DNA of 7,395 nucleotides. Origin: Clostridia bacterium. GTDB lineage: Bacteria > Bacillota_A > Clostridia > Lachnospirales > Lachnospiraceae. Below, in pieces: positions 1 to 7,395 of the stretch; the first letter of the stretch is position 1; each line of letters starts with the position of its first letter. Made by a program: the position numbers and the translations under genes. A model generated the notes under the pieces. The model did no database searches and was not told where the DNA came from. It was given only the letters and a program-made list of their open reading frames with translations. The stretch lies in assembly GCA_012515365.1 (NCBI GenBank), contig JAAYYM010000510.1, forward strand, positions 1-7,395. The letters run 5' to 3'.

Positions 1-482
1 AATGAATAGGGTAAAAAATCATAGTAGGCATCAAGAAAAACAAAAGGAATAGTAAGTGACTCAAATTGTTTCAGATCTTCCGGTGCCAACTCAGTTGCAA
101 GAATAATAATCCCGGAACTAGCATAGTTGGTCAATTTGCTGAGAATGTGGTGTATCGAGGTTGTACGCAAATCAAAAGAATCAACAATTACTCCATATCC
201 AGCCTTCCCCGCCTGGCTAATGATTCCATCTATATAATCATTGACGAAGAGGAAGTGATCAGGATTGAGAATGTTGCCATGCTTTACAATCTTGGCAAAA
301 GTCAGCTCTTTGTTTTGCTTGGTGATATTTAACGTTGCAGCGCTATATCCATATTGTTCTGCAATCGTAAAGATTTTTTTGCATGTCTCAGGGCTTGCTG
401 CACTTTTGCCCCGTAGTACCAAGGAGACAGTAGATGGAGATACCCCTGCAAGGTTCGCAATATCAATCAAACGAGCTTTCAT
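1..482 (-). CDS. LacI-family transcriptional regulator, N-terminal part (runs off left edge)
   Basis: Reading the minus strand from the ATG at 482-480 gives 160 intact codons that continue past the window edge. Residues about 4-25 form a LacI-type helix-turn-helix (DIANLAGVSPSTVSLVL), followed by the start of the periplasmic-binding-protein-like effector domain (FAKIVKHGNILN at about 62-73, YIDGI at 83-87, ATEL at 129-132, FVFLDAYY at 147-154). The usual hinge signature (PN..AR.L) after the HTH is not recognisable; residues 46-61 read YSAATLNITKQNKELT. The protein is a paralogue of the regulator at 2261-3289, with roughly 40% identity by eye over the visible effector domain. It is divergent from dhaL, the usual place for a local regulator. 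No good ribosome binding site precedes the ATG, and the best promoter predicts a leaderless transcript. An in-frame GTG two codons upstream (488-486) is an alternative start. The family binds DNA as a dimer and responds to a sugar-like ligand; the ligand is unknown here. Confidence 0.93.
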   Translation of the reverse strand, partial: MKARLIDIANLAGVSPSTVSLVLRGKSAASPETCKKIFTIAEQYGYSAATLNITKQNKELTFAKIVKHGNILNPDHFLFVNDYIDGIISQAGKAGYGVIVDSFDLRTTSIHHILSKLTNYASSGIIILATELAPEDLKQFESLTIPFVFLDAYYDFLPYS

Positions 483-488
483 GCTCAC

Positions 489-525: not shown

Positions 526-557
526 TTTTAAATTTACTAAATATTTTACTAGATTTC

Positions 558-586
558 TTGTGAAATTTATAGCTCTATCGTATACT
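558..586 (+). promoter_or_regulatory. Putative promoter of dhaL and the DapA-family gene
   Basis: TTGTGA (558-563), a 17-bp spacer and TATACT (581-586) form a good sigma-70-type promoter, placing the start near 593 with a leader of about 29 nt containing the dhaL ribosome binding site. Upstream are two TACTA repeats (535-539 and 547-551). The block TTTCTTGTGA (554-563) recurs exactly in the promoter at 3411-3439, suggesting shared control. Confidence 0.6.
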
Positions 587-621: not shown

Positions 622-1251
622 ATGGAAAAGATGGGGTCGGCAGAAATTATAAAAATGCTTGGGCATGTAGCACAAGCAATGAAGGATAAGCGCCAATATC
701 TTATAGAACTGGACAGTACCATCGGTGATGGTGATCTTGGGATTACAATGGAAAAAGGGTTTGAGGCTGCTTATACCTATGCCAAGGATAATCAAAGCTT
801 GAAACCAGGGGATTTGCTTATGCGCTGTGGAATGCAGATTGTGAAAGTTGCTCCATCTACCATGGGAACACTGATGGGTACCGGATTCATGCGGGGAGGC
901 AAAATGCTTTCAGGCAAGGATATTCTGGTTTCTCAAGACCTTGCCGTGTTTTTTGAAGGATTTCTTCAAGGTGTACTGGAGCGAGGAAAGGCAAAACAAG
1001 GGGATAAAACCATTGTAGACATTCTGTTTCCGATTGTCGAAGCAATGAAAGCCTATCAGGGAACAGATTGCAAGGCTGTCTTGGAAGAAGGAGTATTGGG
1101 TGCCTACAGAGGATTGGAAGCCGAAAAGGGCATGATGAGTCAACACGGGAAGGCGGCAGTATTCAGGGAAAAGACGCTCCAGATGACGGATCCTGGTAGT
1201 ATGGCTGTCGTTATATTGATAGAAGCTTGTCGCGATAGTGCGCACAATTAG
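622..1251 (+). CDS. dhaL: Dihydroxyacetone kinase subunit DhaL (DAK2 domain)
   Basis: The 209-residue protein has the full length of a stand-alone DhaL, the nucleotide-binding subunit that works with DhaK to phosphorylate dihydroxyacetone or a related short ketose in the cytoplasm. Visible DAK2 signatures: ELDSTIGDGDLG at 29-40 with D31, D36 and D38 in the positions that hold the Mg-nucleotide in the family; APSTMGTLMGT at 77-87 in place of the usual glycine-rich GGASGPLYGT; RGKAKQGDKT at 121-130; and DPGS at 190-193. Two differences stand out: the histidine that usually follows GDGD is L39, and the GGASG loop reads APSTMG, so substrate or phosphoryl donor may differ from the E. coli enzyme. 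A strong Shine-Dalgarno (AAGGAGAA, 607-614) supports the ATG at 622. The next gene begins 19 bp after the stop. No DhaM is visible; the DhaK partner is probably the gene starting at 7299. Whether the nucleotide is ATP or tightly bound ADP rephosphorylated by DhaM cannot be decided here. Confidence 0.9.
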   Translation: MEKMGSAEIIKMLGHVAQAMKDKRQYLIELDSTIGDGDLGITMEKGFEAAYTYAKDNQSLKPGDLLMRCGMQIVKVAPSTMGTLMGTGFMRGGKMLSGKDILVSQDLAVFFEGFLQGVLERGKAKQGDKTIVDILFPIVEAMKAYQGTDCKAVLEEGVLGAYRGLEAEKGMMSQHGKAAVFREKTLQMTDPGSMAVVILIEACRDSAHN

Positions 1252-1256
1252 TACAT

Positions 1257-1262
1257 GGGAGG
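1257..1262 (+). promoter_or_regulatory. Ribosome binding site deciding the start of the DapA-family gene
   Basis: GGGAGG lies 8 nt before the ATG at 1271. It favours that start over the in-frame GTG at 1238, which would overlap the end of dhaL, has no comparable site, and would add eleven residues before the conserved N-terminus. Confidence 0.7.
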
Positions 1263-1270
1263 ATGTGAAT

Positions 1271-2167
1271 ATGGTGAAAATGTATGGTGTCATTACTGCA
1301 ATGGTTACCCCATTTACAGATGAGGACAAGGTAGATGTTGCTACGCTCAATGCATATACCGACTATTTGATTGAGAATGGGGTTCATTGCCTCTATCCCT
1401 GTGGGACAACCGGTGAAATGTTGAAAATGGATGTTGCAGAACGTAAATTGGTTGCAGAGACAGTGCTCAAACGTGCTGCAGGCAGAGTTCCCGTGTTTAT
1501 TCATGTAGGTGCTATGACTACGAAAGATACTGTAGAGCTAGCCCGTCATGCCGAGCTCATCGGTGCTGCCGGCATTGGTGTCGTTACTCCTCAATTCTTT
1601 ACTGTCAATGATCGGGAAATGGAAGAATTCTATGTAACTGTGGCCAACGCAGTCTCGAAGGATTTCTCGGTATACATTTATAGCATTCCTCAGTGTGCAG
1701 CGAATGATGTGCGTCCCGAAATTGTTGATCGCATCGTAAAACGCGCCAAAAATGTGGTAGGTGTAAAATACAGTTACGCTGATTATTTGCGTGTTAAGAA
1801 TTATTTGCTTTGCAATGAGGGAAATTTCGATGTAGTAGTAGGCCCGGACAGGCTGTTTCTTCCTGCTTTGGCGATGGGGTGCGTTGGTACTGTATCCGGG
1901 TGTTCGAACTGTGGACCCGAACCATTCGTCAGAGTATATGATGCCTTTATGAAAAGGGATATTGCAGCGGCTAGAATTGCGCAGAACCAGGCAAATGAGC
2001 TTTGCGAGTTAACACTGAGTGGCGCAAATATGGCAATCTTCAAAGCGGCGATGTACTACAACGGCCTTCCTTTTGGCCATATGCGGGCTCCTGCATTGGA
2101 CCTTACAGCTTCGGAGACCAATTCGTTAATCGAAAAACTTATTGCGTACCAAAAAAAGTGGAAGTGA
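1271..2167 (+). CDS. DapA/N-acetylneuraminate lyase family class I aldolase or dehydratase
   Basis: This 298-residue protein is a TIM-barrel Schiff-base lyase of the dihydrodipicolinate synthase / N-acetylneuraminate lyase / 2-keto-3-deoxy-acid aldolase superfamily. From the N-terminus: GVITAMVTPF at 6-15; the phosphate-loop-like GTTGE at 45-49 that binds the 2-oxo-acid carboxylate; the catalytic tyrosine in YSIP (Y137, equivalent to YNxP); the Schiff-base lysine in GVKYS (K166); and GTVSGCSN at 206-213. The family makes or breaks bonds at pyruvate, or dehydrates sugar acids. A lysine-biosynthetic role is unlikely because the gene sits between dhaL and a LacI regulator in a catabolic cluster; a 2-oxo-3-deoxy acid substrate is more plausible. 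The protein has many cysteines (40, 44, 142, 181, 204, 211, 214, 245), several near the barrel core. The precise reaction is not assignable from motifs. It is the second gene of a unit with dhaL and is followed at once by a strong hairpin. Confidence 0.9.
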   Translation: MVKMYGVITAMVTPFTDEDKVDVATLNAYTDYLIENGVHCLYPCGTTGEMLKMDVAERKLVAETVLKRAAGRVPVFIHVGAMTTKDTVELARHAELIGAAGIGVVTPQFFTVNDREMEEFYVTVANAVSKDFSVYIYSIPQCAANDVRPEIVDRIVKRAKNVVGVKYSYADYLRVKNYLLCNEGNFDVVVGPDRLFLPALAMGCVGTVSGCSNCGPEPFVRVYDAFMKRDIAAARIAQNQANELCELTLSGANMAIFKAAMYYNGLPFGHMRAPALDLTASETNSLIEKLIAYQKKWK

Positions 2168-2173
2168 TGAGTA

Positions 2174-2204
2174 ATTTCGGCCGGAGTTTTATTCCGGCCG
2201 AAAT
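2174..2204 (+). terminator. Strong hairpin after the DapA-family gene
   Basis: A perfect 12-bp stem (ATTTCGGCCGGA at 2174-2185 with TCCGGCCGAAAT at 2193-2204) encloses a 7-nt loop and starts 7 nt after the stop codon. There is no clean T-tract after it (GTTCCTGTTTCTC follows), so it may be an imperfect terminator or a 3' stabiliser that lets some transcription continue into the regulator at 2261. Confidence 0.65.
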
Positions 2205-2234
2205 GTTCCTGTTTCTCAATGGAAGAAGACATGG

Positions 2235-2240
2235 TATAGT
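2235..2240 (+). promoter_or_regulatory. Possible -10 element for the second LacI-family gene
   Basis: TATAGT, identical to the -10 proposed for the left LacI gene, lies 20 bp before the TTG start. A start near 2247 would leave a very short leader holding the ribosome binding site. The best -35 at 17-bp spacing (TTTCTC, 2212-2217) is poor, so an own promoter is only suggested; read-through from dhaL is the alternative. Confidence 0.35.
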
Positions 2241-2248
2241 TCTCTTTC

Positions 2249-2256
2249 GAGGAGAA
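2249..2256 (+). promoter_or_regulatory. Ribosome binding site supporting a TTG start
   Basis: GAGGAGAA precedes TTG at 2261 by 4 nt. An in-frame TAG at 2237-2239 excludes any earlier start, and the ATG at 2256-2258 is out of frame, so TTG is the only start that keeps the whole helix-turn-helix. Confidence 0.75.
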
Positions 2257-2260
2257 TGTT

Positions 2261-3289
2261 TTGGGTAAGATCACAAGCAAAGAAATTGCCAGACTTGCTG
2301 GAGTGTCAGTATCTACTGTATCAATTGTACTGAACAGCAAGGCTGGGGTAGGTGAGGAGACTCGGAAACGGGTTTTAGATATTTTGGCTTCGTATGGGAT
2401 TTTCCCTAAATCCAGCGGATACATGCCTTCTCGCGGTGTAATCAGATTTTGTAAAATTGTAAAACATGGCCATATCATCAATGATCGACACAACGTATTC
2501 ATAAGTGAGTACATCGACGGTGTGATCGATGAGGCAAAAAGTGTTGATTTGTCAGTCGAAGTTGCGACATATCAAAATGTACCAATTTCTGAAGTTGTGC
2601 AAGATTTAGCAAAATCTCCAAATATTACCGGTTGCATTTTGCTCTCTACCGAGTTGTCTGAGGAAGATTTGTCCCAGTTTGCCTCGCTTCCAATACAACA
2701 TGTTTTCTTGGATGCTATTTATCCGTATGCGAAAGGCTCGTTTGTGACAATGGATAATGCAGGTATGGTTTATGAAGCGATTCGCTACCTGCATGAATGC
2801 GGCCACAAGAGAATTGGTATGTTCACTTCCAGCGGATGCAGCAATTTCCATGCAAGAGAAGAGGCTTTTCTTGATTCACTGAAGAAACTTGCTTTGCCTC
2901 GAGATGACCGATACATCATTCCTGTTCAGAGCACTCATCAAGGCTCGTATGAGGATACCAAAGCATTTCTCATGCAAAACTCATCCGAAATATTACCCAC
3001 GGCTTTTTTTGCTTGTAATGATATTGTTGCTATCGGGGCAATTCGAGCTCTCCAGGAATGTGGGTATGATGTTCCAACCAGAATTTCTGTAATTGGTTTT
3101 GATGATCTTCCTATCTCATCCCTCTTATCCCCGGCATTGACTACGTTATCAGTTCCGAAGCTTGCACTTGGAAGCCTGGCGGTCCGGGTCTTGTTGGATG
3201 AAAGGGATTCTATTGGTGTGATAGCATCACGAAAATCCGTGCTTGGCGGCACCTTGATTCATCGATCCAGCGTAGCGTTGCCAGGTTGA
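2261..3289 (+). CDS. LacI-family transcriptional regulator
   Basis: The complete 342-residue protein has the normal LacI/GalR length. Residues 4-25 are the helix-turn-helix (KEIARLAGVSVSTVSIVL). The hinge region 46-64 (GIFPKSSGYMPSRGVIRFC) lacks the canonical PN..AR.L helix. The effector domain runs from about 65, with KIVKHGHIIN (65-74), YIDGVID (84-90), STEL (129-132), VFLDAIYPY (148-156), TMDNAG (163-168), a FFACND block (249-254) that resembles the family's ALFCANDxxA motif, and VIGFDDLPIS (277-286). It is a paralogue of the regulator at the left edge. Lying between the dhaL unit and the RraA/TTT unit, it probably controls one or both, responding to the imported acid or a breakdown product. 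Starts with TTG and is followed by a strong intrinsic terminator, so it forms its own unit or the end of the dhaL unit. Confidence 0.95.
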   Translation: MGKITSKEIARLAGVSVSTVSIVLNSKAGVGEETRKRVLDILASYGIFPKSSGYMPSRGVIRFCKIVKHGHIINDRHNVFISEYIDGVIDEAKSVDLSVEVATYQNVPISEVVQDLAKSPNITGCILLSTELSEEDLSQFASLPIQHVFLDAIYPYAKGSFVTMDNAGMVYEAIRYLHECGHKRIGMFTSSGCSNFHAREEAFLDSLKKLALPRDDRYIIPVQSTHQGSYEDTKAFLMQNSSEILPTAFFACNDIVAIGAIRALQECGYDVPTRISVIGFDDLPISSLLSPALTTLSVPKLALGSLAVRVLLDERDSIGVIASRKSVLGGTLIHRSSVALPG

Positions 3290-3307
3290 GTCGTATTTTA
3301 TTGTGTT

Positions 3308-3333
3308 GCCTCCTTTGCCAGGAGGCTTTTTTT
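3308..3333 (+). terminator. Rho-independent terminator after the second LacI-family gene
   Basis: Perfect 7-bp GC-rich stem GCCTCCT (3308-3314) / AGGAGGC (3320-3326), a 5-nt loop, then seven T (3327-3333). It begins 18 bp after the TGA and separates the regulator from the RraA/TTT operon. Confidence 0.93.
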
Positions 3334-3410
3334 GTATCGATTCTACTCAAATTCATTAACTGTGGTAAAAGAACGTGTTAAAAATACTAGAAATTTAATA
3401 AATAATTTTC

Positions 3411-3439
3411 TTGTGATTTAAGAAAAGTAGAGGTATCAT
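3411..3439 (+). promoter_or_regulatory. Putative promoter of the RraA-tctCBA-dhaK operon
   Basis: TTGTGA (3411-3416), a 17-bp spacer and TATCAT (3434-3439) predict a start near 3446, giving a leader of about 16 nt. The block TTTCTTGTGA (3407-3416) and an upstream TACTAGA (3385-3391) both recur before dhaL. TTTTCTT/AAGAAAA inverted arms (3406-3412 and 3420-3426) overlap the -35 and are a possible operator. Confidence 0.6.
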
Positions 3440-3461
3440 AGAGACAAAGAGAGGAAAAAAA

Positions 3462-4208
3462 GTGCTTTCACATGCAGATCTACTAAAACTCAAGCGCTGG
3501 AACACCCCAACTATTTATAATGGATGGGAGGCAATCACCAAGAAGGATCGGCTTGAAGTCCGTTGCAACCGGGAGGAAACACGGGATTTCATGCCTCAAA
3601 TGGGGTCGATGATCGGCTATGCAGTTACTTTGACATTTGAACCAAGTAAAAAAGAACATTTTCATGACAATGAGCGTGTTTGGTCGGAGTATCGCGAATA
3701 TATTGCATCAGTACCGGGACCCAAGATTGTAGTTTTGCAAGATTTGGATTCACCCCACCAGATAATTGGCTCATTCTGGGGCGAGGTGTGTTCAAATATG
3801 CATAAAGCCTTGGGTTGCGTCGGAACCATTACCGATGGAGCTATCAGGGATATGGATGAAATGACCAATGCAGGTTTCAAGGCGATCGCAAGACGTCTTT
3901 GTGTTGGCCATGCCTATTCCATCCCTGTCGCTTGGAATCTTCCTGTTAAGGTTTTTGGTTGTACTATCAATCCTGGTGATTTGATACATGCAGATAAACA
4001 TGGCTTCTTGGTTATTCCTGAGGAAGAACAAAATCATATTGTCGAAGCTGCTTCCTACATGGATGCAAACGAATGCCTCACGACTATTGGTGCAGCCAGA
4101 CAAAGTTCTGGTAAAACATATCCACAAATTCTGGAAGCTTTAAATCAAGCCAATAGTGAGTTCTCTCGTAATACCAGTGTTTTTAAGAAGCGTTTGGGCC
4201 TTAACTGA
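3462..4208 (+). CDS. RraA-family class II aldolase-like protein
   Basis: The 248-residue protein resembles the RraA / 4-hydroxy-4-methyl-2-oxoglutarate aldolase family, whose enzymatic members are metal-dependent pyruvate aldolases that also decarboxylate oxaloacetate. Visible signatures: NTPTIYNGW (14-22) at the N-terminus, FWGEV (105-109), GCVGTITDGAIRD (118-130) with the family's Arg-Asp pair R129-D130 and E133 giving RD-x2-E, and NPGDLIHADKHGFLVIP (170-186). Retention of R129, D130 and E133 argues for an active metal-dependent lyase rather than the RNase E-inhibiting RraA, which is also shorter (about 160 residues). It starts with GTG at 3462 behind GAGAGGA (3449-3455). As first gene of the transporter operon it likely acts on the imported compound or a derivative, cleaving a 4-hydroxy-2-oxo acid or decarboxylating a 2-oxo diacid. 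The older label 'dimethylmenaquinone methyltransferase' for such proteins should not be trusted. A 58-bp gap with a small 5-bp hairpin (4222-4235) leads to tctC. Confidence 0.88.
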   Translation: MLSHADLLKLKRWNTPTIYNGWEAITKKDRLEVRCNREETRDFMPQMGSMIGYAVTLTFEPSKKEHFHDNERVWSEYREYIASVPGPKIVVLQDLDSPHQIIGSFWGEVCSNMHKALGCVGTITDGAIRDMDEMTNAGFKAIARRLCVGHAYSIPVAWNLPVKVFGCTINPGDLIHADKHGFLVIPEEEQNHIVEAASYMDANECLTTIGAARQSSGKTYPQILEALNQANSEFSRNTSVFKKRLGLN

Positions 4209-4266
4209 ATTGGGTTTCTCTAGAGCGTAGGCTCTGAAGAATTATACAACAAGAGGAGAAAAGAAC

Positions 4267-5229
4267 ATGAAGAAGACCTTGTTCATTCTGATGATGGTCG
4301 CTTTGGTAGCTACCTCTGTATTTGCGCAAGCAACTGCGGAAGCTCCAAAATTCCCGACCAAGCAAATCAACATCGTTGTCGGCGCATCTGCTGGCGGCAC
4401 GTCTGATGTTGTCACGCGTTTTCTGGCAAAAGATGTTGAGACTCAATTGGGAGTACCCGTTGTAGTTACCAACAAGCCCGGTGGGTCCTGTTCTGTTGCC
4501 TTTGAATACATGGCAGCACAAAAACCTGATGGCTATAATATGATGTACATGCCTGTTGAGTCAGCGATGGTTAAGCCTCTTGGGTTGACAAATCTGGAAC
4601 CTTCCTCCATCCGTTACATCGGTCTCGCAATGTATCTTCCTGCAACAGTGACGGTTAACAAGAATGCTCCTTGGAATACTTTTGAAGAATTAATCAAGTA
4701 TGCAAAGGCCAATCCTGGAAAAGTAACCGTAGGAAATTCTGGTACTGGTTCAATCTGGCACTTTGCGGCTGCCGGTATTGAGCAGGCAACTGGCGTTAAG
4801 TTCAACCACGTTCCATTTGATGGTGGTGCAGCTGCTGCAACTGCTGTCATGGGTGGACACATTGATGTAGCAACTGTAGCTCCTGGTGAGGTTCTCACGG
4901 GTGTCCAAGGTGGAAACCTCAAGGTTCTCGCCATTGTAGATAACAACAGATCTGTTCTTTACCCGAACGTACCTTCTTTCAAGGAACTGGGGTATGATGT
5001 CAAGATTCTTGGTTGGGGTGCTTTTGGAGTTCCTGCCAATACTCCTGATGACATCGTCAAGACGCTCGAATCTGCATTTGCCAAGGCTATCCAGAGTCAA
5101 GGTTTCAAGGACCTCTGCACTAAGTACGGCCTTACCCAAGGATATTTGAATGCTGCTGAAGCTCAGACTTTTGCCGAAGCCCAGGCTGCATGGTATCAGA
5201 CTGAAATTCCCAAGTTTAAACTGAGATAA
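4267..5229 (+). CDS. tctC: TTT-family periplasmic solute-binding protein (TctC/Bug receptor)
   Basis: The 320-residue protein is the extracytoplasmic receptor of a tripartite tricarboxylate transporter. A signal peptide covers residues 1-20 (KK, then a hydrophobic core, VFA before the likely cleavage at A20/Q21), with no lipobox cysteine, so the mature protein should be free in a periplasm. Bug-family signatures: INIVVGASAGGTSDVVTR (34-51, the ligand-carboxylate binding loop region), NKPGG (69-73), VGNSGTGS (155-162), HVPFDGG (181-187) followed by GGHIDV (196-201), and YPNVPSFKELGYD (232-244). Family members bind carboxylates (tricarboxylates, dicarboxylates, aromatic acids, sugar acids); the ligand here is not predictable by motif. 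The Shine-Dalgarno AGAGGAG (4252-4258) is strong. A hairpin right after the gene may keep its mRNA level above that of tctB and tctA, as receptors are needed in excess. Confidence 0.95.
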   Translation: MKKTLFILMMVALVATSVFAQATAEAPKFPTKQINIVVGASAGGTSDVVTRFLAKDVETQLGVPVVVTNKPGGSCSVAFEYMAAQKPDGYNMMYMPVESAMVKPLGLTNLEPSSIRYIGLAMYLPATVTVNKNAPWNTFEELIKYAKANPGKVTVGNSGTGSIWHFAAAGIEQATGVKFNHVPFDGGAAAATAVMGGHIDVATVAPGEVLTGVQGGNLKVLAIVDNNRSVLYPNVPSFKELGYDVKILGWGAFGVPANTPDDIVKTLESAFAKAIQSQGFKDLCTKYGLTQGYLNAAEAQTFAEAQAAWYQTEIPKFKLR

Positions 5230-5244
5230 TTACGTAACTTAAGA

Positions 5245-5270
5245 GTGGGCCATTATTTTTAATGGCCCAC
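5245..5270 (+). terminator. Hairpin after tctC, likely partial terminator or mRNA stabiliser
   Basis: An 11-bp perfect stem (GTGGGCCATTA at 5245-5255 with TAATGGCCCAC at 5260-5270) closes a TTTT loop, 16 nt after the tctC stop. No T-tract follows, so full termination is unlikely. Placed between receptor and membrane subunits, it most likely protects the upstream mRNA or reduces read-through. Confidence 0.6.
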
Positions 5271-5290
5271 ATTCTACTGTTGTTTGAAAT

Positions 5291-5309
5291 GAAATGTAAA
5301 GAACATTTC
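5291..5309 (+). other. Second small hairpin in the tctC-tctB spacer
   Basis: GAAATGT (5291-5297) pairs with ACATTTC (5303-5309) around a 5-nt loop. It is weaker and AT-rich, 20 bp after the first hairpin and 20 bp before the tctB ribosome binding site. A role in setting tctB/tctA expression is possible but unproven. Confidence 0.3.
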
Positions 5310-5338
5310 CCAAGGTCTAGAGTCTATCTGGAGGTCGC

Positions 5339-5773
5339 ATGAATAAGGCAGGCTTGGTTTTTGTTGGCATTAGCATTGCCGTAGCAGTTTTTTTTATGAT
5401 ACCCGCATTTTCCATGCCGGGAGGCTCTGTAGATGGAGCTCCAGGTCCGGGTTATTTCCCCATTATTCTATCAGTCATAGTAATAATTTTAGCAATTATT
5501 CAAGGCATTTTTTATTTACGGGAAGATAAAAAGTCATTTGATCAAGATGAAACACAGAGAAAAAACAAGCCAATGCTTTTTATTGTCTGCATTGCAACGC
5601 TTGTTTATACAATCCTTTTTATGTTCATCCCTTTTATACCATTAACAATTGTTGCTGTTGGTTTTCTTAATTGGTTGTTCGGAAAGAAATGGATACCAAA
5701 TCTCATTTTTTCTGTAGCTTTCACCATGATTATCTATGTGATATTCAGCAAATTTCTGCATGTCATGCTGTAA
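5339..5773 (+). CDS. tctB: TTT small membrane subunit TctB
   Basis: The 144-residue inner-membrane protein has the size and four-helix layout of TctB: hydrophobic spans at about 5-24, 40-60, 79-97 and 100-140 (the last probably two helices), with a charged cytoplasmic-type loop at 61-77 (REDKKSFDQDETQRKNK). The family signature GPGYFP lies at 36-41. TctB supports the large subunit TctA; its exact role in transport is poorly known in the family. GGAGG (5330-5334) precedes the ATG by 4 nt. The 109-bp spacer from tctC contains two hairpins; tctA follows after only 13 bp, indicating co-translation with it. Confidence 0.88.
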   Translation: MNKAGLVFVGISIAVAVFFMIPAFSMPGGSVDGAPGPGYFPIILSVIVIILAIIQGIFYLREDKKSFDQDETQRKNKPMLFIVCIATLVYTILFMFIPFIPLTIVAVGFLNWLFGKKWIPNLIFSVAFTMIIYVIFSKFLHVML

Positions 5774-5786
5774 TAAGGAGTAACAT

Positions 5787-7280
5787 ATGGATTGGCTTTC
5801 TGCATTTGCTGGTGTATTCCGGCCTGATGTGTTTTTTTATCTTGTTGTGGGTGTAGTATCAGGCGCATTCATAGGAACTATGCCTGGTCTCACTGCTACG
5901 ATGGCTGTTGCTGTACTGACTCCCATTTCTTTCTGGCTGGAACCAGCATGCGGTTTTGCTATGTTGATCGGTGTATACAACTCAGCCATTTGGTCTGGAG
6001 GAATATCAGCAATTCTTATCAATACCCCTGGTACGCCTGCTTCCATGGCTTCTACATTTGATGGTTATAAGCTCTCTCAGAAGGGTTATTCGGGTTTGGC
6101 ACTGAATATCAATACCATCTGGTCTGTGTTTGGTGGATTAGTGAGCACTGTCTGTCTAGCAACTTTCTCATTTCCTTTGGCATCATTTGCACTAAAGTTT
6201 GGTCCTTCAGAATTTGCGGTAGTAGCGTTATTCGGACTCACCATGATGGTAAGTGTGTCGGGAACTTCCCCTGTCAAAGGTTTGCTTGTTGGTTTTCTCG
6301 GTCTTCTTCTTTCTACCGTTGGACTCGAGACAATCCATGCATATAAGCGGTATACATTTGGACAGGCAGGCTTGTTGGATGGATTGAACTTTGTAGCAGT
6401 CATGATTGGCCTTTTTGGTGTAGGGGAAATACTCTATCAGATTTATACTACTGAACGTGATGCCCCGTCGATGAAAGCAGAAGTTAAGACTAAGAAACAA
6501 ATGCCTTCCTTAAAGTTGTTAGGGAAATTGTTCCCGAAAAACCTTTTTGCATCTGCAATATCAGTAATCATAGGCGCAATTCCTGGTGCTGGAGGTGATA
6601 TTGCTTCCATCATCTGTTGGGGACAGGCAAAACGTACCAGTAAGCATCCCGAAGAATACGGAGAAGGTTCAGTAGAAGGACTCTCTGTTACGTGTACAGC
6701 AAATAATGCTGTCATCGGTGGAGCTATGACAACGATGCTCTCGTTGGGAATACCTGGTGACTCAGTTACTGCAATCCTAATCGGATCCTTAATGATGTAT
6801 GGGATGACTCCTGGACCTATGCTGTTCATTGAGAACCGTCCCTTTGTTTTAACGTTGATTGCGCAAATGGTAATAGCCAACCTAGCAATACTCGCATTTG
6901 GACTCACTACGAGTAAGATTTATCCAAAGATGTTGGCAATAAAGAAAACATCGCTCTGGGTTGTAGTCTTGTTCTTCTGTTTTGTTGGCGCATATGCAAT
7001 CAACAACTCGTATGTAGATCTTATTGCCATGGCTGTATTCGGAATTGTTGGGTTCTGTTTCAAAATGCTCGATCTTCCTAATGGTCCATTCATTCTTGGT
7101 TTGTTGCTCGGTAAACTGCTTGAGGCGAACTTGAGAAGGACCTTGGCTATGACAATGGGTTCCTATGCAATTTTCTTTACCAGTCCCATCAACGTAGTTC
7201 TTCTGCTTATCACGGTTTTATCATTGTTCCTGCCCACATTCAATAAGTGGAGAAAAGCACGGAAAGCCAGTTCAAACTGA
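5787..7280 (+). CDS. tctA: TTT large membrane subunit TctA
   Basis: The 497-residue polytopic membrane protein matches the usual TctA length of about 500 and its many hydrophobic spans. Family signatures: GTMPGLTATM (30-39) near the N-terminus, NTPGTPASM (79-87), GAIPGAGGDIAS (263-274) in the second half, and SLGIPGDSVTAIL (319-331). The two PG-containing motifs mark the repeated halves of the fold that form the translocation core; transport in this family is driven by an ion gradient rather than ATP. Residues 221-250 form a hydrophilic central loop between the halves. AAGGAG (5775-5780) precedes the ATG by 6 nt. dhaK starts 18 bp after the stop, which ties transport to ketose phosphorylation in one operon. 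Confidence 0.95.
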   Translation: MDWLSAFAGVFRPDVFFYLVVGVVSGAFIGTMPGLTATMAVAVLTPISFWLEPACGFAMLIGVYNSAIWSGGISAILINTPGTPASMASTFDGYKLSQKGYSGLALNINTIWSVFGGLVSTVCLATFSFPLASFALKFGPSEFAVVALFGLTMMVSVSGTSPVKGLLVGFLGLLLSTVGLETIHAYKRYTFGQAGLLDGLNFVAVMIGLFGVGEILYQIYTTERDAPSMKAEVKTKKQMPSLKLLGKLFPKNLFASAISVIIGAIPGAGGDIASIICWGQAKRTSKHPEEYGEGSVEGLSVTCTANNAVIGGAMTTMLSLGIPGDSVTAILIGSLMMYGMTPGPMLFIENRPFVLTLIAQMVIANLAILAFGLTTSKIYPKMLAIKKTSLWVVVLFFCFVGAYAINNSYVDLIAMAVFGIVGFCFKMLDLPNGPFILGLLLGKLLEANLRRTLAMTMGSYAIFFTSPINVVLLLITVLSLFLPTFNKWRKARKASSN

Positions 7281-7298
7281 TATATTGAGGTAATAAAA

Positions 7299-7395
7299 GT
7301 GAAAAAATTTGTAAATAATCCTGTTGATTTTGTTGATGAAATGCTTGAGGGAATTCTATCTGCACATCCTGACCAGCTTGCATCTTGTGCAGGCT
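7299..7395 (+). CDS. dhaK: Dihydroxyacetone kinase subunit DhaK, N-terminal start (runs off right edge)
   Basis: From a GTG at 7299, 32 codons are visible before the edge. They read KKFVNNPVDFVDEMLEGIL and continue SAHPDQL, which matches the start of DhaK/DAK1 proteins (E. coli type: KKLIND..DVLDEQL.G...AHP). GAGG (7287-7290) lies 8 nt before the GTG, and the gene begins 18 bp after tctA. DhaK is the substrate-binding subunit that holds the ketose covalently through a histidine; that histidine and the GGGSGHEP motif lie beyond the window. It is the natural partner of DhaL at 622-1251. The short visible length limits certainty, but the presence of dhaL in the cluster supports the call. Confidence 0.82.
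   Translation, partial: MKKFVNNPVDFVDEMLEGILSAHPDQLASCAG

Follow-up and report, generated by a model that had tools for sequence, protein, structure and literature searches.

Dihydroxyacetone kinase subunit genes lie 6 kb apart in a conserved cluster with a DapA-family lyase and a tripartite tricarboxylate transporter

One question raised by contig JAAYYM010000510.1 of a Clostridia bacterium is whether a dihydroxyacetone kinase whose two subunit genes lie far apart could still work as one enzyme, and on which substrate. In the stretch analysed (7,395 nucleotides, hereafter the window), 6.05 kb separate the stop of dhaL (position 1251) from the start of dhaK (7299), and this interval is occupied by genes for a DapA-family lyase, a LacI regulator, an RraA-like protein and the TctC, TctB and TctA subunits of a tripartite tricarboxylate transporter (TTT). 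An earlier note on this DNA had described the two subunit genes at opposite ends of such a cluster; the coordinates and family matches bear this out, and the gene order is repeated in two other loci, L038 and L039. The reading that we favour, with confidence and doubt about evenly balanced, is that the cluster catabolises a hydroxylated acid: the lyase would cleave a 2-oxo-3-deoxy sugar acid and DhaK-DhaL would phosphorylate the short aldose released, the separated genes being co-expressed.

Families were assigned with Pfam and NCBIfam profiles, which recognised seven complete genes and two cut ones, the matches of the complete genes exceeding the Pfam cut-offs (Table 1). All three TTT subunits were present, so that the transporter is complete by Pfam, as in the systems treated in PMC5812351. 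The 32 residues encoded from position 7299 gave no Pfam match and only a weak one to the DhaK model TIGR02363 (E 1.8e-5), far below its cut-off because the window end truncates the gene. They matched the starts of the DhaK frames of loci L001, L002 and L003 at 74, 61 and 53% (the loci were searched together and the matches assigned by coordinates). Since L038 and L039 have a complete dhaK in the same gene order, the frame very probably continues into a Dak1 domain.

The search for conserved neighbourhoods that had been proposed in the earlier note yielded these two gene-for-gene matches, L038 (G500:C111) and L039 (G537:C24). Both carry the eight genes of the window in identical order, with a complete dhaK of 336 codons, and their identities to the window were 58-59% for DhaL, 71-73% for DapA, 76% for RraA, 74-76% for TctC and 74-77% for TctA. 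This indicates that the split is due neither to chance nor to misassembly. The two loci are close relatives (their DhaK proteins are 94% identical) and therefore represent little more than one independent case. A DhaK search of the order to which G500 belongs (223 genomes) gave seven matches at E 1e-130; only the L038 and L039 operons exceeded 90% identity, the other five standing at 64-65%. The L039 DhaK contains a complete Dak1 domain (397 bits) and aligns along its length with the solved DhaK structures 3ct4, 1uoe, 4lrx and 1oi2. The GSGH, NYSGD and GIHGEPG motifs are retained in both loci, and GIHGEPG, which we take to be the substrate-binding histidine motif, is aligned with that of solved DhaK. 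Downstream of dhaK, where the earlier note had asked about dhaM or a dehydrogenase, both loci encode an HpaI-family aldolase followed by a D-2-hydroxyacid dehydrogenase, and no DhaM. The L039 HpaI protein is nearest to 4-hydroxy-2-oxoheptanedioate, 2-dehydro-3-deoxyglucarate and 2-keto-3-deoxy-L-rhamnonate aldolases, below the cut-off in all cases; the dehydrogenase is of the phosphoglycerate or glyoxylate/hydroxypyruvate type, nearest to 5tx7 and below every equivalog cut-off.

The rarity of such a split was assessed across 198 genomes from the phylum to which G003, a Treponema, belongs. Thirty-seven of them had a Dak1 match at E 1e-20, giving 47 matches, gene pieces included. Forty of these lay within 500 bp of a Dak2 match on the same strand, in agreement with the usual adjacency of dhaK and dhaL asserted in the earlier note; four had no Dak2 on the contig, one was the second piece of a frame-broken gene, and two were 3.1 and 3.9 kb away. 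For this count 43 of 71 Dak2 rows were used, 28 with open frames of at least 503 aa (FakA-like size) being left out; none of these shares a contig with a Dak1 match. Separation of dhaK and dhaL is thus rare, not unprecedented, and it cautions against deducing kinase pairs from adjacency alone. The two 3-4 kb splits, L060 (7690-12287) and L059 (4920-10449), are in spirochaete clusters with gene sets different from that of the window, read by eye as sugar-ABC genes plus an FGGY-like kinase and as TIM-barrel plus aldolase-like genes.

Whether the separated subunits belong together was assessed in the genomes of the two orthologous loci. G500 and G537 each had a single Dak1 match, that of the operon, and two Dak2 matches (Pfam), namely the operon DhaL and an open frame of 619-620 aa; inspection by eye of the G500 frame suggested a FakA-like protein. 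The DhaK and DhaL of the operon very probably belong together despite the split, because they are the only Dak1 and the only stand-alone Dak2 match in both genomes; the second complete dhaKLM operon envisaged in the earlier note was not found in the sequence of either. The DhaL tree (window, L038 and L039) and the DhaK tree (L038 and L039, the window DhaK being too short) both place the operon subunits beside the adjacent pairs of L001 and L002. Support was moderate (80/84 and 80/85), with long-branch warnings elsewhere in both trees. The two trees are broadly congruent and suggest that the split arose from an adjacent pair. Their similarity also speaks for the pairing, as do the promoter-like sites that the two transcription units share.

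As in the DhaKLM systems of E. coli and L. lactis, DhaK and DhaL would be separate subunits, and the window DhaL matches 3pnl at 79 bits. Unlike them, its genes are 6 kb apart, probably in different transcription units, and the EIIA-man domain that marks DhaM was found in none of eight related genomes (5 of 14 controls were positive, E. coli and L. lactis included). As no DhaM was found, the kinase probably uses ATP. The window DhaL reads GDGDLG-x-TM where the E. coli protein has GDADHG-x-NM. The GDGDLG signature was considered as proof of ATP use and dropped; loci L024-L026 have an HG-x-NM form, yet their genomes also lack DhaM.

The lyase and the kinase recur together beyond these loci. RraA was searched in 392 genomes of the phylum of G003 (5 matches at E 1e-40), and DapA in the 139 genomes of one family, that of G305, selected for the close RraA of this genome (7 matches at 1e-90), and in 390 genomes of the order of G003 (9 matches at 1e-85). 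The surroundings of all 16 spirochaete DapA matches were fetched and tabulated, and presence or absence refers to these stretches. TctA was present at 13 of the 16 loci (not in G428, G581 or G528), and DhaK plus DhaL at eight (G448, G414, G432, G349, G500, G537, G581 and G528; in G581 the contig edge leaves just a 34-residue end of DhaK). DhaK-DhaL-DapA stand in a row in G581 and G528, with no Tct in the stretch, and DhaK-DhaL-DapA is a recurring module, found in this row at L041, L046, L047 and L052 in two phyla. L047 (7186-12984) lies on the Klebsiella michiganensis plasmid NZ_CP106839.1, typed conjugative, in the arrangement YhcH / LacI / DhaK-DhaL-DapA-MFS, and a 4.08 Mb Proteus mirabilis record filed among plasmids carries TctC-TctB-TctA-DhaK-DhaL-DapA by our gene calls. 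These two were found through the genes of the module itself (DhaL, then DapA) and are not independent counts. In the plasmid searches DhaL matched 355 records, of which 5 were examined, the Klebsiella DapA matched 3, of which the P. mirabilis one was examined, the L039 DhaK matched 299, and RraA matched none at E 1e-30. The Klebsiella DapA was found in none of 369 genomes of the class around G004, a search that had no positive control and is hence uninformative, and megablast of the Klebsiella stretch gave no match in E. coli genomes.

Sequence comparison places the window DapA in the class I pyruvate lyase superfamily (DHDPS, NAL and KDG aldolase); GaaC is also a DHDPS family member. In 13 of 13 aligned proteins the lysine and tyrosine that align with those of NAL and DHDPS (5afd, 2ehh) are kept, presumably as Schiff-base and catalytic residues. 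None of the 13 has the arginine of the DHDPS motif IPSR, presumably substrate-binding; IPSR of 2ehh aligns with IPQC in the window, the Q being invariant in the clade. Because Y-x-I-P-Q stands where 2ehh has IPSR, the protein is predicted not to be the DapA of the lysine pathway, and its score against the 4-hydroxy-tetrahydrodipicolinate synthase model TIGR00674 was 163 (cut-off 206). Against the 2-keto-3-deoxygluconate aldolase model NF040954 it scored 123 (cut-off 390). The family also includes dehydratases, such as 5-dehydro-4-deoxyglucarate dehydratase (88 bits for the window DapA), and the protein might be a dehydratase or another class I lyase, pyruvate then coming from HpaI or RraA. We regard this as the least probable explanation, since neither HpaI nor RraA was found in the Klebsiella and Proteus stretches.

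Under the favoured reading TctABC would import a hydroxylated acid that is, or becomes, a 2-oxo-3-deoxy sugar acid; the D-2-hydroxyacid dehydrogenase of L038 and L039 could oxidise C2. The Schiff-base lyase would cleave the acid into pyruvate and a short aldose, most likely glyceraldehyde, which DhaK and DhaL, a strongly supported pair made from two separated genes, would phosphorylate without DhaM, probably with ATP; both the donor and the substrate are inferred. RraA and HpaI might act on related or epimeric acids as accessory class II aldolases. That the product of the lyase is the substrate of the kinase is suggested by the small Klebsiella and Proteus sets of a carrier, DapA, DhaK and DhaL. 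A similar cleavage is known: PMC5488244 describes a non-phosphorylated 2-keto-3-deoxy acid cleaved to pyruvate and glyceraldehyde, which GaaD reduces to glycerol. The same non-phosphorylated cleavage is proposed for the window cluster, the difference from that pathway being that DhaKL would phosphorylate the product.

The earlier note had proposed acid uptake, retro-aldol cleavage and phosphorylation of a ketose such as dihydroxyacetone. The recurring neighbourhood of acid transporter, aldolases and kinase is borne out, and dihydroxyacetone as the product is not supported: a C6 straight-chain 2-oxo-3-deoxy acid would give pyruvate and an aldose, glyceraldehyde; dihydroxyacetone would need a branched acid. 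Such a branched acid had been suggested there: RraA would cleave a 4-hydroxy-4-(hydroxymethyl)-2-oxo acid into pyruvate and dihydroxyacetone for DhaKL. Known HMG/CHA aldolases of the RraA superfamily give a ketone product, an Arg-Asp pair of the window RraA aligns with that of chain 3noj, and L012, L013, L038 and L039 all conserve DapA alongside RraA. However, these four are the only tabulated loci with RraA beside DapA; the fetched stretches of Klebsiella, Proteus, L023-L026, L041 and L046, all with DapA and DhaKL, had no RraA, and in L012 and L013 it occurs with no DhaKL nearby. In addition, Asp102 of 3noj aligns with a Glu in the window, and the scores were far below the equivalog cut-offs for HMG/CHA aldolases (NF006731, 52 against 179; TIGR02798, 47 against 304.5). 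The branched acid is thus a very unlikely substrate. The one direct hint at the substrate comes from the dehydrogenase of the Tct-DapA-RraA cluster of L013, a KduD-type short-chain dehydrogenase/reductase (339.4, cut-off 338.85), which would point to straight-chain 2-keto-3-deoxygluconate chemistry.

L012/L028 and L013 contain a KduD-like short-chain dehydrogenase/reductase, TctCBA, HIT, a xylose-isomerase-like TIM barrel, a 2-hydroxyacid dehydrogenase, DapA and RraA, and no DhaKL nearby; this Tct cluster is possibly for 5-keto/2-keto-3-deoxygluconate. Outside the tabulated loci, L014 (9270-11820) of another spirochaete genome has adjacent genes for RraA (61%), a distant DapA (25%) and what by eye is an HpaI-type aldolase.

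A different product would be expected if the lyase cleaved a C7 or C8 2-oxo-3-deoxy acid (3-deoxy-heptulosonate, Kdo), releasing a tetrose or pentose that DhaKL would phosphorylate as a ketose. The models for such a route are the L-erythrulose kinase pathways of tetritol and apionate catabolism, in which a DhaK-family kinase works with an RpiB-type isomerase, as in L023-L026; to our knowledge they have neither a DapA lyase nor a Tct transporter. L023-L026 contain a FucI-like isomerase, DhaK, DhaL and RpiB together with TctCBA, HpaI and DapA (and YhcH in L024-L026); they are probably a C4/C5 variant of the module and may handle a longer sugar. Their pairing of this DapA clade and DhaKL with the two isomerases speaks for the tetrose or pentose. 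The L024 RpiB also reaches 98 bits with the erythrulose-4-phosphate isomerase model (cut-off 240), though 132 with the general RpiB model, the YhcH found next to DapA in L024-L027 and the Klebsiella cluster may suggest a cyclic keto-acid, and both the DhaL of the window and the DhaK of its relatives fall in the trees with pairs encoded in sugar-ABC operons. Yet no isomerase was recognised in the window, L038, L039 or the P. mirabilis clusters, and the DhaKL of L024-L026 form a clade separate from the window type. We consider this explanation unlikely.

Expression of the separated genes was then considered. A terminator-like hairpin follows lacI2, and the window is therefore likely to contain two transcription units, dhaL-dapA-lacI2 and rraA-tctCBA-dhaK. 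Both have matching promoter-like sites and share a candidate operator, so the separated subunits are likely to be co-expressed. The operator, ATTTA-N1/2-TAAAT, occurs twice in the window, and never more than once in any of 200 shuffles. The dhaL promoters of L038 and L039 likewise end in TATACT, those of rraA in TATCAT or TATCCT. Three of these four promoters have the ATTTA element in exact form, a variant replacing it at L038 dhaL. The consensus scans gave no overall excess (promoter-like, 18 found and 15.9 expected; terminator-like, 6 and 6.6). Relatives suggested a different consensus, the 16-bp palindrome TAGTAAAATTTTACTA, which fits L012, L047, L060 and the lacI side of L001 (2-3 mismatches) and does not fit L046 or the dhaK side of L001. 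Five intergenic regions of the window contained no CG-centred palindrome of the form tested, and the 18-bp palindrome common to L038 and L039 before rraA is absent from it at up to 3 mismatches. The strong 14-bp hairpin between dapA and lacI2 possibly limits read-through into the latter.

Several observations weigh against the favoured reading. As regards regulation, the candidate operator was spotted before being tested, it is not upstream in L012, L013, L040 or L047, 10 of 1000 shuffles did as well as or better than the local alignment of the two promoter regions, and the window dhaL promoter does not fit TAGTAAAATTTTACTA. The completeness of the relatives' genomes was not given, and 'only' and 'absent' could partly reflect gaps. 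As regards the substrate, we know of none for any of the DapA relatives, the KduD score is marginal and comes from a cluster without DhaKL, the FucI-like and RpiB genes of L023-L026 would better suit a C4/C5 sugar than glyceraldehyde, and a threonine-dehydratase-like gene (by eye) stands beside the P. mirabilis DapA on the opposite strand. Finally, the other eight of the 16 DapA loci (G305, G230, G428, G558, G213, G150, G003 and G759) lack DhaKL in the fetched stretch, G428 and G558 being contigs of 4.9 and 7.6 kb. All except G428 have Tct with DapA, Dak1 is encoded elsewhere in at least G305, G230, G558, G003 and G150 (in G558 a lone one, with no Dak2 match), and DhaKL also occurs in sugar-ABC operons without DapA (the ABC genes of L001-L003 were read by eye). 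This would be expected if the cluster combined two unrelated functions, Tct-DapA-RraA for the acid and DhaKL for separate salvage of dihydroxyacetone or a sugar. We rate this as distinctly improbable, given the DhaK-DhaL-DapA rows in two phyla and the frequency of DhaKL beside DapA though Dak1 occurs in so few genomes of the phylum, a comparison made without a matched chance control.

More generally, and with somewhat more doubt than confidence, we propose a horizontally spread module of DapA-clade lyase, DhaM-free DhaKL and an interchangeable acid carrier (TTT, MFS or other), acting as lyase and then kinase on a non-phosphorylated 2-oxo-3-deoxy sugar acid, the genes of the kinase subunits standing, in one spirochaete lineage, at the two ends of the cluster; the window cluster itself is spirochaete-like. 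If so, DhaK-type kinases would act downstream of pyruvate lyases, the TTT family would be linked to sugar acids, and the module would be portable, occurring in spirochaetes and two enterobacteria, in one of them on the plasmid typed conjugative. The parts of the cluster belong to known families. In line with the earlier note, a literature search of titles and abstract openings, subscription papers being mostly outside its coverage, found no description of this gene set and no paper naming both a tripartite tricarboxylate transporter and a dihydroxyacetone kinase.

Table 1. Genes and candidate regulatory signals of the window.
Feature	Position	Strand	Evidence or remark
LacI-family regulator 1 (LacI1), cut by window end, divergent from dhaL	3..488	-	Pfam LacI 45.9 bits
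ATTTA-N-TAAAT element upstream of dhaL, candidate operator	532..542	.	One of two in window; 0.04 expected
Promoter-like TTGTGA-17-TATACT before dhaL	558..586	+	dhaL of L038 and L039 also preceded by TATACT, at equal spacing
dhaL, nucleotide-binding kinase subunit, GDGDLG variant	622..1251	+	Dak2 131 bits (Pfam cut-off 27); TIGR02365 134.5, cut-off 138.3
DapA-family lyase, clade with Y-x-Y-x-I-P-Q and G-x-K-Y-S motifs	1271..2167	+	DHDPS 187 bits; homologues support start
14-bp hairpin directly 3' of dapA, before lacI2	2174..2204	+	Hairpin scan
LacI-family regulator 2 (LacI2)	2261..3289	+	Pfam; relatives between dapA and rraA in L038, L039, L012
Intrinsic terminator-like hairpin with T run after lacI2	3308..3326	+	-12.2 kcal/mol, z -2.9, 2/200 shuffles equally good
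ATTTA-N-TAAAT element upstream of rraA, candidate operator	3393..3403	.	Second of two in window
Promoter-like TTGTGA-17-TATCAT before rraA	3411..3439	+	Promoter scan
RraA-like protein (HMG/CHA aldolase superfamily)	3462..4208	+	PF03737 78.7 bits; 76-80% relatives in L012, L013, L038, L039
tctC, solute-binding protein	4267..5229	+	PF03401 169 bits
tctB, small membrane subunit	5339..5773	+	PF07331 73 bits
tctA, large membrane subunit	5787..7280	+	PF01970 450 bits
dhaK, first 32 codons, cut by window end	7299..7395	+	TIGR02363 24 bits, model positions 1-29; complete orthologues in L038, L039

The window gave no Rfam match at gathering scores, its RraA had no match in PHROGs, and the viral contigs scanned with RraA and DhaL contained no relatives. 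LacI1 and LacI2 match one and the same LacI protein of L012, at 43% and 46%. The E. coli plasmid NZ_CP027125.1 carries, in L049 (7225-13059), two neighbouring DhaK-DhaL pairs on opposite strands; one has the GDGDLG type of the window, and after it comes an HPr-family protein that lies next to phosphotransferase system genes and a class II aldolase.

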